From positions 2,356,001 through 2,420,000 of the forward strand of contig NZ_AP027728.1 in assembly GCF_030296555.1 (NCBI RefSeq): a DNA stretch of 64,000 bases. The letters run 5' to 3'. A model generated the notes under the pieces. That model was given only the letters and a program-made list of their open reading frames with translations, searched no databases and was not told the origin of the DNA. The number at the start of each line of letters is the position of its first letter. Positions within the stretch are counted from its first letter, which is position 1. Made by a program: the position numbers and the translations under genes. Origin of the DNA: Microbacterium suwonense (GTDB lineage: Bacteria > Actinomycetota > Actinomycetes > Actinomycetales > Microbacteriaceae). Below are positions 1,694 through 52,988 of this stretch, one piece after another.

Positions 1694-2566
1694 TCAGGCT
1701 CGGGTGGATACGAGGGCGAAGAGGCGCAGCATCCGTGCCGCCTCGGTGGCGACCGCCTCGCGGCCGGGCGCGACGTACTTTCGCGAGTCGACGAGCTTCT
1801 CGTCGTCGGCGAGCGTCTCGCGGATCGCGCGGGTGAAGAAGCCGTTCAGGTGCGTGGAGACGTTGATCTTGGTCATCCCCGCACGCACGGCCTGGACGAT
1901 CGTGTCGTCGGCGACGCCCGAGGATCCGTGCAGCACGAGCGGCACATTGCCGCCATTGCGACCCACTCCGCGCAGGGCGTCGCGCAGGCGGCCGATCAGC
2001 GCGATGTCGAGGGATGCCGAACGGTCGAGCATCGCGTGCGACGAGCCCACCGCGACGGCGAGCGCGTCCACCCCGGTCGCCTTCACGAAGGCGCGTGCCT
2101 CGTCGGGATCGGTGCGGACGCCGGGAGCGTGGGCACCGTCTTTGCCGCCCACCTCGCCGAGCTCCGCCTCGACGAACACCCCGGCGACACGGGCGCGCGC
2201 CGCGACGTCGGCGGTGAGAGAGACGTTCTCGTCGTAGTCGAGCTTGCCGCCGTCGAACATCACCGACCCGAATCCCAGCTCGATGGCCTCGTCTACGAGC
2301 TCGGGACGCTCGGCGTGGTCGAGGTGCACGGCGACGGCCGTCGACGCCCGGCGGGCGATCGCGAGGGTGGCCCAGCCGATCGGCTCGAGGCCGCCGTGGT
2401 AGTCGGCGCAGTTCTGCGAGATCTGCACGATCACCGGCAGCTGCGCGCGCTCGGATGCCGCGACCAGCGCCTCGGCAGTCTCGAGGTGTATGACGTTGAA
2501 CGCGCCGAGCCCCGTGCCGGCGGCAGCGGATGCGCGCACGAGGTCGCGGGCGGAGACGAGAGTCAT
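1694..2566 (-). CDS. class II ketose-1,6-bisphosphate aldolase (tagatose/fructose type)
   Basis: 290 aa. A zinc-dependent class II aldolase cleaving fructose- or tagatose-1,6-bisphosphate to glyceraldehyde-3-P and dihydroxyacetone-P. Visible features: GAFNVIHLET near the N-terminus, the metal-binding AVHLDHAE segment (about residue 80), VEAELGEVGG (about 130), VGSSHA, LVLHGSSGV and a TKINVSTHLN segment near 220. The start ATG at 2566 overlaps the stop of the upstream kinase (ATGA), which indicates translational coupling and rules out the longer reading upstream. With the SIS protein, ROK kinase and PfkB kinase it fits a GatY/KbaY/AgaY-like tagatose-bisphosphate step of galactosamine-type catabolism. 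Fructose-bisphosphate specificity cannot be excluded from sequence. Confidence 0.88.
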   Translation of the reverse strand: MTLVSARDLVRASAAAGTGLGAFNVIHLETAEALVAASERAQLPVIVQISQNCADYHGGLEPIGWATLAIARRASTAVAVHLDHAERPELVDEAIELGFGSVMFDGGKLDYDENVSLTADVAARARVAGVFVEAELGEVGGKDGAHAPGVRTDPDEARAFVKATGVDALAVAVGSSHAMLDRSASLDIALIGRLRDALRGVGRNGGNVPLVLHGSSGVADDTIVQAVRAGMTKINVSTHLNGFFTRAIRETLADDEKLVDSRKYVAPGREAVATEAARMLRLFALVSTRA

Positions 2567-3933
2567 CGGGATTCCTTCGGGTCGGATGCCTCGGGTGAGG
2601 CGGATGCTTCGGGTGAGGCAGAGGCTTCCGGTGAGGCGGAGGCTTCCGGTGAGGCGGATGCTTCTGGCCGGGCGAATGCCCCACCGGATGACGAGACTTC
2701 CTCTCCAGCACGAGACTGCACAGCAGACACTGTGTCTCGTGCTGGAAGGGAAGTCTCGGCGGGGGCGGAAGCGGGGGCGGCGACGGGGGCGGCGACGGGG
2801 GCGACGGTGAGGGCGTGCTCGAGGTCGGGCCAGGAGGGGTGGATCTCGCCGGCAAGCGGCATCAGCACGGCGGCTGCCGACCAGGCCGTCGCGCGGCGAA
2901 GGATCTGCTCGGGGTCGCGGATGCCGGCATCCATCAGCACGGCGCACGCAGCGACCGCGGAGTCGCCCGCCCCGGTCGGGTTCCCTGCGAGCGGGGTGTC
3001 GAGCCGGGTGCGCAGGATGCTGAGATCGAGCCGATCTTCGGCATCCGTTCCCTCGCCGTCGTTCCCGGGTGCCGCCCCGCCGGCCGACACGCCAGATGTC
3101 GGACGGTTTGCGCGAATCGGTCCGACATCTGGCGTGTCGGCCCCCGATTCGTAACCGGGGGAGACGGCGGATGCCGTGGACACGGCCAGCATCCCCTCGG
3201 CGCCGAGTGAGAGCAGCACCAGCTCGGCGCCACGGCGCAGCAGCTCACGGGCGCCGTCGATCGGGTCGTCGAGGCCGGTGGCGTCCCGCAGCTCGTGCTC
3301 ATTGGGCTTGAGAACGGATGCTCCGGCATCCGCCGCCGCCAGGAGTGCCGGCCCCGAGGTGTCGGCGATCACGGTCGCGCCGGCCTCGCGCCCCAGCCGG
3401 ATGAGCGACGGCAGCAGCTGGTCCGGGGTTCCGGGCGGGAAGCTCCCCGAGATCACGAGCACGTCGCCGATCGCGGCATCCGCTCCCCGATCCCCCGTCG
3501 AGAGATCACTATCCGCAGGAGAAGCCTGTGCAGACCTCGCGTCTCGTGCGCGAAGGGCAGCGGCCACGGCATCCGTCAGGGCCGACCATTCGGCATCCGT
3601 CGGCGCGACGCCGTACTCGTTGACGATGGTGGTGTCGCCGAGCGACTCGTCGACCAGCGCGATGCTGCGACGCGTAGAAGCCGCCACCGGCACGAGCACG
3701 TGCGGCACGCCCGACGCCTCCAGCTCCGAGGCGAACTCCGCACCGGTCGCACCACCCGAGGTCGTGACCGCGAGCACAGACGCGCCCTGCGCGTGGGCGA
3801 CGCGGGCGACGTTGAGACCTTTCCCTCCGGCGCGCGCCCGTCCGGCATCCGCTCGATGCGTTCCACCCATCGCCAGCGAGGCGACGTGCCAGGTGAGGTC
3901 GAGGGCAGGGTTCGCGGTGACGGTGACGATCAT
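2563..3933 (-). CDS. PfkB-family hexose-phosphate kinase with palindrome-derived insertions
   Basis: 456 aa against about 310 for the family. It resembles 1-phosphofructokinase/tagatose-6-phosphate kinase: the N-terminus MIVTVTANPALDLTW, the substrate-binding ARAGGKGLNVAR, and the C-terminal catalytic motif NPTGAGD at about residues 317-323 are intact. The extra length comes from two places. Residues about 264-282 ([16 protein letters not shown]) are encoded by a 61-bp palindrome (3082-3142) placed just before the catalytic motif. Residues from about 393 onward include a second palindrome (2692-2758) and four ASPEAS hexapeptides (2588-2671). Both insertions keep frame, so the enzyme may still work. 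The start at 3933 is the ATG of MIVTVT; the stop overlaps the aldolase start. Role: phosphorylates the sugar phosphate that the aldolase then splits. Confidence 0.85.
   Translation of the reverse strand: MIVTVTANPALDLTWHVASLAMGGTHRADAGRARAGGKGLNVARVAHAQGASVLAVTTSGGATGAEFASELEASGVPHVLVPVAASTRRSIALVDESLGDTTIVNEYGVAPTDAEWSALTDAVAAALRARDARSAQASPADSDLSTGDRGADAAIGDVLVISGSFPPGTPDQLLPSLIRLGREAGATVIADTSGPALLAAADAGASVLKPNEHELRDATGLDDPIDGARELLRRGAELVLLSLGAEGMLAVSTASAVSPGYESGADTPDVGPIRANRPTSGVSAGGAAPGNDGEGTDAEDRLDLSILRTRLDTPLAGNPTGAGDSAVAACAVLMDAGIRDPEQILRRATAWSAAAVLMPLAGEIHPSWPDLEHALTVAPVAAPVAAPASAPAETSLPARDTVSAVQSRAGEEVSSSGGAFARPEASASPEASASPEASASPEASASPEASDPKESR
2588..2671. repeat. 18-bp tandem repeat encoding ASPEAS hexapeptides
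   Basis: Units start at 2588, 2606, 2624 and 2642, with a partial fifth at 2660, differing by only 1-3 bases each (for example GCTTCCGGTGAGGCGGAG). On the minus strand they encode repeated ASPEAS at the extreme C-terminus of the PfkB kinase. The array lies beside the palindrome at 2692 and is outside the kinase fold. Confidence 0.92.
2692..2758. repeat. family B palindromic repeat, copy 1 (inside the kinase gene)
   Basis: Arms 2692-2716 and 2734-2758 (25 bp, one mismatch; core GAGACTTCCTCTCCAGCACG) flank a 17-nt loop. The same core recurs at 52924-52988, 50 kb away, so it is a dispersed element. This copy is translated in frame within the C-terminal tail of the PfkB kinase. Confidence 0.9.
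3082..3142. repeat. family A palindromic repeat, copy 1 (inside the kinase gene)
   Basis: Perfect 23-bp arms (3082-3104 and 3120-3142; core GCCGACACGCCAGATGTCGG) with a 15-nt loop. Further copies lie at 26544-26604 and 49961-50029. Flanks are shared as well: the CCCCCGATTCG after the right arm is found next to copy 2, and copy 3 carries a similar sequence in the opposite orientation. So the element is longer than the palindrome and has a polarity. Here it is read in frame as part of the PfkB kinase. Confidence 0.95.
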
Positions 3934-14772: not shown

Positions 14773-14787
14773 TCCCGCCCCTCTCCT

Positions 14788-14855
14788 GCCCGTCTATTTG
14801 GCGCTTAAGCCCGCTTTACGCCCGAAATCCGTGCACGCGCGCCATATAGACGGGC
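14788..14855. repeat. long palindrome between lactonase and purA
   Basis: Arms GCCCGTCTATTTGGCGC (14788-14804) and GCGCCATATAGACGGGC (14839-14855) match over 17 bp with one mismatch; the loop is 34 nt. It follows the purA stop by 9 bp in the direction of transcription. The loop is too long for a classic terminator, and it fits the style of dispersed palindromes here. Confidence 0.8.
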
Positions 14856-14864
14856 TTGAGAGGG

Positions 14865-24694: not shown

Positions 24695-28118
<3,424 letters not shown>

Positions 28119-49960: not shown

Positions 49961-50029
49961 CGGGGGCCGACACGCCAGATGCAGGCCGTTTCCCGTGAAT
50001 CCGTCCGACATCTGGCGTGTCGGCCCCCG
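49961..50029. repeat. family A palindromic repeat, copy 3 (inverted orientation)
   Basis: Outer arms 49961-49981 and 50009-50029 are perfect 21-bp complements (core GCCGACACGCCAGATG). The inner part of the left arm has drifted (CAGGCC instead of TCGGAC). The flank GTTAC..CGGGGG matches the other end of copy 1, so this copy is flipped. It lies between nucS and the HAD gene. Confidence 0.93.
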
Positions 50030-52753: not shown

Positions 52754-52836
52754 TGCGCGAGGGGGACTTGAACCCCCACGCCCTTGCAGGCACTGGCACC
52801 TGAAGCCAGCGCGTCTACCTATTCCGCCACTCGCGC
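52754..52836 (-). tRNA. tRNA-Leu (anticodon CAG)
   Basis: 83 nt on the minus strand. Acceptor GCGCGAG/CTCGCGC with discriminator A, anticodon stem CTGGC/GCCAG with loop TTCAGGT (anticodon CAG, reads CUG), a short variable arm stem as in class II tRNAs (TGCC..GGGCG region), and T arm GGGGGTTCAAGTCCCCC. CCA is not encoded. CUG is the dominant Leu codon in this window, so this should be a major isoacceptor. It lies next to fhaA. Confidence 0.96.
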
Positions 52837-52923: not shown

Positions 52924-52988
52924 GAGACTTCCTCTCCAGCACGAAACAACGTGCGTGCACGCACGTTTCATGCTGGAGAGGAAGTCTC
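52924..52988. repeat. family B palindromic repeat, copy 2
   Basis: GAGACTTCCTCTCCAGCACG on the left is mirrored by TGCTGGAGAGGAAGTCTC on the right, with an inner GTGCGTGCAC palindrome, so almost the full 65 bp is self-complementary (one mismatch and a 3-nt offset). It lies between tRNA-Leu and fhaA. Copy 1 is inside the PfkB kinase gene. Confidence 0.9.

Follow-up and report, generated by a model that had tools for sequence, protein, structure and literature searches.

The 64,000-nucleotide stretch of the Microbacterium suwonense chromosome analyzed here (NZ_AP027728.1, positions 2,356,001 to 2,420,000; hereafter the window) contains a gene for a PfkB-type hexose kinase on its reverse strand (2563..3933) whose reading frame runs through a long palindrome. 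The source genome of 3.16 Mb is called G000; other G numbers stand for genomes surveyed and L numbers for loci. The first-pass annotation had described a 61-bp element with perfect 23-bp arms, and we recovered it at 3082..3142. The left arm (3082..3104, + strand, GGCCGACACGCCAGATGTCGGAC) is translated, the right arm (3120..3142, - strand) is its perfect reverse complement, and the 15-nt spacer between them (3105..3119, no strand) has a constant length and a varying sequence among copies. An outward extension on the right (3143..3160, + strand, CCCGATTCGTAACCGGGG) is partly common to other G000 copies; its counterpart on the left is not kept. The open reading frame (ORF) reads through the palindrome in phase, as residues 265-284, with a gap of about 34 residues to the NPTGAGD motif (2962..2982, - strand, residues 318-324), close to the 35 first estimated. 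A Pfam match (PfkB, E 1.2e-30) bears out the identity of the host gene. Two more copies in the window are intergenic, as had been noted, when judged with a simple gene caller: one lies between divergent genes (26544..26604), with the next called gene start 85 bp away, and the other between co-directional genes (49965..50025), where the left arm has 3 mismatches and represents a recurrent GCAGG variant. At up to 3 mismatches, the window holds 6 arm matches; shuffled sequences (n = 100) give a mean of 0.01.

We searched 118 related genomes, which yielded 30 kinase loci, 23 of which we aligned with the G000 kinase. This protein scores 215.3 bits against the NCBIfam 1-PFK hexose kinase subfamily, slightly below the cut-off of 216.4, and it has three variable insert regions: loop 1, loop 2, and the C-terminal tail. 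The palindromic segment, in loop 2, is absent from most relatives, and the alignment turned up no palindrome-free equivalent of it. The earlier figure of about 20 added residues fits the palindrome itself, whereas the loop as a whole is 135 nt (45 residues) longer than in the empty relative G039. In a structure model, the kinase core is confident and the insert (260-286) falls in a low-confidence loop, with predicted local distance difference test (pLDDT) values below 50 there and at 146-151, 393-434, and 436-456 (tail). Among the aligned relatives that cover loop 2, only the nearest, G182, has a decayed copy (DTPDYGQIRGKRPLSGVS) at the same site. The palindrome is also present in the G030 kinase, but in loop 1, a region (3499..3552, - strand) where the G000 gene shows, by eye, a possible decayed GAGA...CACGAGA palindrome. 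Across 114 homologues, the length of loop 2 between its anchors ranges from 15 to 219 residues, with a median of 18.5. Among the 120 kinase homologues listed (of 1478), 18 have a translated palindrome in one loop or the other; this screen used the ADTPDVG/PTSGVSA frame only, so it does not test the frame rule described below. The named relatives among the homologues listed are nearly all Microbacterium. Palindromes also occur elsewhere in the kinase, as judged by eye from the DNA of six genomes: a different one (GCCCTTCGAC...GTCGAAGGGC) lies in loop 1 of G294, and there are further ones in the C-terminal tails of the G000 and G040 kinases. The one in G000 (2692..2758, no strand) belongs to another dispersed family (GAGACTTCC..., arm spacing 42) and is translated. 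The kinase is a repeated landing place for palindromes. Its tail closes on EASASP near-repeats (2563-2693), and the start of the next called gene, presumably for an aldolase-like protein, overlaps the kinase stop codon.

The palindrome is dispersed in the genome. Using the 19-bp core of the arm at up to 3 mismatches, we found 37 matches in G000; read from the match table, 34 of these form 17 pairs with arms 38 bp apart, and the remaining three are unpaired, each having 3 mismatches. Decayed copies do not form a long tail at this threshold. By the simple codon-score gene caller, 5 of the 17 copies lie in ORFs; the others are intergenic, flanked by convergent genes in 5 cases, by co-directional genes in 6, and by divergent genes in 1. 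These classes are approximate because the caller overlooks atypical genes, such as that of the nuclease described below. The five ORFs encode the PfkB kinase, a fused carboxyltransferase, a DUF7059 methyltransferase, a Big_5 protein, and an Lrp-like regulator; in the last, the copy sits in the C-terminal tail, and the other four are domain-bearing. The core occupies many non-orthologous places, and the concern that it might occur only in orthologues of the kinase gene fell away. The exact 15-mer is present in 35 of 366 genomes of the genus. A looser paired pattern occurs in 2 of 398 genomes of the family, both from the same genus, and in 0 of the 389 outside it (the nine same-genus rows in the family set were counted by eye), and all 31 stretches with a paired palindrome are on contigs named Microbacterium. 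At L151 (2974 and 3214), two perfect copies with near-identical spacers stand 240 bp apart, a rare sign of local duplication.

Copies are also translated in other genes and species. The lactonase in CBA3102 and G127 carries the palindrome, and the gene is 60 nt longer than that of G100. In G127, an ATP-NAD-kinase-like gene has a copy with a 16-nt spacer, and the frame shifts inside the insert. Three genomes carry the palindrome in a Big_5-type protein (L010, L033, L158), and two carry it in an N-terminus resembling one from a membrane protein (L023, L024). It is also found in an ATPase-like tail at L141, for which Pfam gave no match. After the main palindrome, the L141 stretch (2335-3213) contains an apparent second translated sequence of this kind (ALRRAQGP...VAEPVEA), presumably from a palindrome family of its own. 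In 9 of 9 copies called within ORFs, the left arm reads DTPDVG or GTPDVG. The same frame is used in five further translated copies (L023, L024, L030, as in the G127 gene, L033, and the G030 kinase), so that the translated copies at ten distinct sites share a single frame out of three. In the carboxyltransferase, the linker varies among all aligned relatives, and the case for insertion is therefore weak at that locus. Vertical variation of a linker holds for this fusion, and the locus is no proof of insertion. A TGCACGAC copy near the G012 kinase was ruled out as a coding copy, since it lies upstream of the start.

The arms and the spacer evolve very differently. With spacers of 0-60 nt allowed, the spacer is 15 nt in 73 of 75 distinct copies; the other two have 16 and 26 nt, the latter in a stretch containing N. 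A control with reversed arms gave 0 copies over the same range of 0-60 nt. Between G000 copies, the arms differ at 0.055-0.068 per site and the spacers at 0.52. For the 12 copies in G127, the values are 0.000-0.015 and 0.67, compared with 0.70 for unrelated sequence; these copies were located by exact 15-mers, which biases the arms and cannot produce the randomness of the spacers. Matching both flanking regions gave 51 site pairs, 27 of which we compared together with the lactonase pair. In these 28 orthologous pairs, 4.0% of positions differ in the arms, 48.6% in the spacers, and 51.5% in the flanks. We chose these pairs ourselves, and many overlap in members; ten consist of brackets of the nuclease gene itself, and the orientation used was the one with the fewest differences. 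Judged from the sequences, copies at orthologous sites are old. We rejected a mere ancient, tolerated hop because arms and spacer change at different rates. Beyond the arms, weakly conserved positions echo the arm sequence with an offset of 19 bp. The element looks like a large protein-binding site rather than the relic of a hairpin. What appears to be one intergenic site (L147 10455 and L281 ~1355) is occupied by a palindrome of the main family in G267/G030 and by one of the TGCACGAC family in G028.

Two of the G000 copies flank a single gene (C1:1455417-1456250) with a product of 278 amino acids. This protein matches Pfam DUF559 (PF04480) with 36.4 bits against a cut-off of 20.6; the Pfam AbiEi_4 match reaches 19 bits, below the 25-bit cut-off, and PADLOC reports AbiEi with E 6e-5. 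We modeled its structure (pLDDT 90.8) and compared the model using Foldseek. The best match, and the sole one under 0.001, is AbiEi (6y8q, E 2.7e-6); weaker matches are the homing endonuclease I-Bth0305I (3r3p, 1.5e-3), Vsr (1cw0, 2.7e-3), and Rv2827c (1zel, 3e-3). According to the model, the protein is composed of an AbiEi-type DNA-binding half with a winged-helix N-terminus and a C-terminal half (DUF559) resembling Vsr and EDxHD homing endonucleases. Residues D208, E218, D220, and H225 are invariant in 54 sequences; together with the predicted fold, they make DNA cleavage by the DUF559 half likely. Of the proposed steps, DNA binding by the AbiEi half has the best support, which comes from homology and from the design of the site.

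The gene adjoins the palindrome in eight genomes. It is bracketed on both sides in four (G000, G127, G094, and L015, where the bracket on one side is a lone arm close to the end of the contig). In L155, L156, L034, and L035, a palindrome lies close by on one side or more. By Pfam, G000 has six DUF559 genes, including L166, which scores below the cut-off. Besides the main gene, L162 and L166 are each clearly bracketed on both sides by a separate palindrome family; the brackets of L164 and L165 are likewise two-sided and distinct but weaker, with scores of 10-16, and L161 has a palindrome downstream only. L162, L164, L165, and L166 lie at other places in G000 and are 35-58% identical or too remote to align. 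Judged by spacing, 165 kb of G000 sequence contain apparent further copies of the L166 and L162 families. Proteins with DUF559 and AbiEi domains are found in 284 of 366 Microbacterium genomes (E <= 1e-30). The nuclease-like protein has 2 matches among plasmid records and no match among phage records.

Brackets of this kind are widespread in the genus. Among 74 DUF559 genes with flanks (a set that excludes the L166 gene, which tblastn did not reach), palindromes lie on both sides of 51 and on one side or more of 71. Shuffled regions, preserving base composition and not dinucleotide composition, reached the palindrome threshold in 11 of 432 cases. The sequence families of the brackets vary by clade, including GCCGACACGCCAGATGTCGGAC, TGCACGAC, and CAGATCGGG. 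Averaging the pairing over 102 odd-centred regions, we found 15 unpaired positions (7 on each side of the centre) and pairing out to about 43, with peaks at 10-12, 19, 28-31, and 38 from the centre, 19 apart. These data show that bracket palindromes have clade-specific sequences and a single architecture, a 15-nt spacer with 19-bp tandem half-sites. The kinase palindrome seems to be part of a larger site of about 87 bp, a size that comes from the averaged pairing profile. Upstream and downstream palindromes of a gene also resemble each other: at 29 loci, the mean score of an upstream palindrome is 31.4 against its own downstream partner and 14.9 against others (0 of 10,000 permutations). The own partner ranks first at 11 of the 29 loci and 17th or lower at 6.

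We then asked how bracket type relates to the palindromes dispersed in the same genome, using the 30 best DUF559 loci. Bracket classes were assigned from short flank motifs, not from a full palindrome model: the main arm within 3 mismatches, or at least 2 TGCACGA or CAGATCGGG words. At least 2 exact arm matches away from the gene occur in 13 of 17 genomes with main-type brackets and in 0 of 13 others (Fisher 2e-5). Bracket copies were subtracted by hand from coordinates, and those for G127, G194, G211, and G094 (4, 4, 2, and 2) were partly estimated, since up to ten matches were listed per genome; L227-L237 and L247-L260, picked by copy count, were left out of the contingency test. Genomes with TGCACGAC brackets contain 18, 3, 9, 14, 9, 16, and 8 palindromes of the form TGCACGAC-N15-GTCGTGCA, compared with an average of 1.8 (range 0-7) in the remaining 23 of 30 genomes. 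With two bracket copies subtracted per genome, this contrast has P = 8e-4; the expectation was formed ahead of the search, though it was unrecorded. In the reverse test, TGCACGA motifs stand beside the one gene examined in 8 of 11 high-count genomes and in 1 of 9 low-count genomes (P = 0.009). These results show that, with exceptions, bracket type predicts which palindrome is dispersed in a genome.

Taken together, we put the probability at roughly 70% that the palindromes are cognate sites of an AbiEi/DUF559 nuclease-like protein encoded elsewhere in the same genome, and the route by which they spread probably involves this nuclease family. The AbiEi half would bind each 22-23-bp arm, in the way that AbiEi antitoxins engage inverted repeats of 23 bp, and the nuclease half would cut or nick at or near the palindrome. 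Repair of the break or transposition-like events may have seeded new copies over long times. Copies within genes would persist where they are in frame in loops, linkers, or tails, the surviving frame (ADTPDVG...PTSGVSA) yielding a plain hydrophilic peptide. The arms may be retained because the protein still reads them, and they would decay once a lineage swaps its type of nuclease. The one example of this is G182, where the best DUF559 gene is TGCACGA-bracketed, there is no exact main arm, and the copy at the kinase site is decayed. The first-pass annotation had suggested a mobile palindrome that tolerates landing in genes; dispersal and in-frame copies in several ORFs agree with this, whereas the arms are conserved as the spacer changes, and recent movement was not seen.

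Several observations weigh against a link between palindrome and nuclease, or against spread by it. Three of the 74 DUF559 genes lack a palindrome at the threshold, and 20 of the 122 positive regions are even-centred. G287 (15 arm matches), G236, G217, G251, and G254 carry the palindrome while the brackets of their examined DUF559 genes are of another type or unclassified, as though the partner nuclease were gone, exchanged, or overlooked. The same holds for several genomes with one match, and G267 (13 arm matches) stood outside the bracket inspection. Conversely, G283, G051, and G175 have main-like brackets and no exact dispersed arm, G323 holds 7 TGCACGAC palindromes with an unclassified bracket, and the high-count genomes G028, G012, and G227 have no TGCACGA motifs at the gene examined. 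In single-linkage tblastx clustering, the upstream flanks of the 29 top DUF559 genes form one cluster, so the gene seems mostly inherited in place, not moved. Outside the genus, only one of two Tsukamurella plasmid genes has a palindrome clearly above shuffles, and it lies upstream. We saw no target-site duplication at the sites in the lactonase, the NAD-kinase-like gene, and PfkB. With one genome per species, no empty site came to light between close strains, and the sites compared gave no sign of a fresh insertion or recent movement.

A different function for the same protein would be that the palindromes are its regulatory or chromosome-organizing sites, a regulon kept by benefit to the host rather than by selfish spread. 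Conservation of the arms at orthologous sites, the strict 15-nt spacer, and pairing in steps of 9-10 bp are consistent with this idea, as is the distance from most upstream bracket ends to the inferred start codon, about 90-125 bp. AbiEi relatives are also autoregulators: AbiEi recognizes a pair of 23-bp inverted repeats with 3 bp between them, and Rv2827c binds two pairs, 13 bp apart (PMC7319586). Like these operators, the palindromes here have inverted repeats of 22-23 bp at a fixed spacing upstream of a gene for an AbiEi fold, paired twice in the case of Rv2827c. Unlike them, they also occur downstream of the gene, genome-wide, and inside genes, and the protein has a nuclease-like half. Regulation alone leaves unexplained the downstream bracket, the insertions in kinase and lactonase loops that relatives lack, and the copies in or beside functionally unrelated genes, and we regard it as unlikely. 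It is very improbable that the elements are bidirectional terminator hairpins captured in genes, linked to DUF559 through gene ends. Intergenic copies are indeed often near gene ends (27 of 73 are convergent, with 4 of 73 at locus edges and unclassified), but a terminator would not require conservation of 22 bp, a 15-nt spacer, or outer half-sites; the brackets also lie upstream of the gene, their families vary by nuclease clade, and the listed copies show no evident U-run by eye. Rfam at gathering thresholds found nothing in four element loci, and one tRNA only in the window.

One of the closest known parallels is with repetitive extragenic palindromes (REPs) and the doublets (REPINs) associated with REP-associated tyrosine transposases (RAYTs). 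As described in PMC3116915, such systems comprise a distinct nuclease gene flanked by the palindrome, dispersed inverted arm pairs, and several pairs per genome with apparent co-evolution. The palindrome here likewise forms 17 dispersed inverted pairs in G000, chiefly intergenic, with copies flanking a nuclease gene. We nevertheless give hardly any credence to an ordinary REP or REPIN moved by a RAYT or another Y1 transposase of the IS200/IS605 insertion sequence (IS) type. The Y1_Tnp domain (PF01797) is absent from G000 and was found in 1 of 366 genus genomes, compared with 5 of 14 control genomes, and we rejected this origin because the domain is lacking. The single genus match is at L045 (G329). 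The nuclease here is AbiEi plus Vsr/EDxHD-like rather than Y1, spacer length is fixed at 15 nt, half-sites of 19 bp stand in tandem, and copies are in frame in genes; neither strand of the GGCCGACACGCCAGATGTCGGAC arms has the GTAG tetranucleotide. According to PMC3733652, it is GTAG-type REPs that have RAYTs and their kin as an enzyme partner, while CGTC-type REPs, including the gene-entering palindromes of Rickettsia, apparently have no dedicated transposase. The latter are defined by a CGTC tag, an 8-9-bp stem starting with AT pairs, a 4-5-nt loop, and a CCA-like tail; more than half of the in-frame insertions are dimers or groups, encoding 20-30 residues (PMC3733652).

The first-pass annotation had likened the kinase element to the Rickettsia palindromes. 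In-frame insertion in ORFs is indeed shared, here in a high-GC actinobacterium, but the element is not of CGTC type in its sequence or hairpin design: stem, loop, and tail differ, the hairpin within each arm reads CCGACA-N7-TGTCGG, and a nuclease-like gene is bracketed by the element. CGTC does precede the inner stem of the right arm in some copies (the last spacer base is C in 10 of 16 G000 copies and 17 of 31 others), and the same paper (PMC3733652) makes no mention of Actinobacteria. There is only the slightest chance that these are inert palindromes of the Rickettsia kind without a dedicated protein, the nuclease link reflecting hitch-hiking in one conserved locus. The upstream neighbourhood shared by the best 29 genes would fit hitch-hiking, but four other DUF559-family genes elsewhere in G000 are bracketed by palindromes of their own (L164 and L165 more weakly), and bracket type predicts the dispersed copies. 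The C-terminal half, by its model, matches Vsr and the catalytic domain of I-Bth0305I, recalling EDxHD/Vsr-like homing endonucleases; unlike those, the gene does not interrupt its own site, as whole palindromes flank it on both sides in G000 and others and sites are genome-wide. With regard to miniature inverted-repeat transposable elements, defined by terminal inverted repeats shared with an autonomous transposon and by target-site duplication, a bracketed nuclease-like gene was found, and no duplication was visible at the three sites named above. Searches with the palindrome for a phage or plasmid origin gave no match in 50,697 phage records, 72,556 plasmid records, or, by exact 18-mer only, viral contigs. 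In its workings the system resembles both REPIN/RAYT pairs and the coding palindromes of Rickettsia, but the defining features tested (Y1 transposase and GTAG tag for the former, CGTC hairpin design for the latter) are missing here. The pairs of palindrome and nuclease look like an independent, unrelated counterpart of REP/transposase pairs.

Other palindromes in the window were also observed. A copy of the GAGACTTCC family (52924-52988, arm spacing 42) lies near a tRNA gene (52754-52836); no partner nuclease of this family came to light. Similar-looking palindromes at 720-780 and 1603-1660 belong to the TGGCGCA and TCCCGTCGCAC families; the latter has an arm spacing of 43 and also occurs at L011 (5021/5064). 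An inverted repeat at 14779-14864 has arms of 26 nt and a gap of 34 nt. The commonest 8-mer of the window, GGATGCCG, occurs 112 times in 64 kb on both strands together, close to the 102 that its sub-words predict.

In open-licence PMC listings, as far as these reach, we found no paper linking nucleases with DUF559 and AbiEi domains to dispersed palindromes, none describing such palindromes in Microbacterium, and no functional study of these proteins with palindromes. Tying a gene-entering palindrome family to a nuclease-like protein makes several protein-palindrome pairs available for comparison, and the origin and persistence of coding palindromes can be tested using a single purified protein together with the DNA of its bracket. 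The link also hints at a function for proteins with DUF559 and AbiEi domains, a very common group in Microbacterium, and indicates one concrete origin of loop insertions in enzymes. More tentatively, and we hold this to be possible rather than probable, there may be a new and widespread class in which several AbiEi-Vsr fusion nucleases per genome each copy their own large, ~87-bp dyad sites into the chromosome, both between genes and in frame within proteins, with specificity turning over from species to species along with the entire set of sites. If true, such palindromes would continually supply actinobacterial proteins with new loops, and would do so without RAYTs or IS elements.

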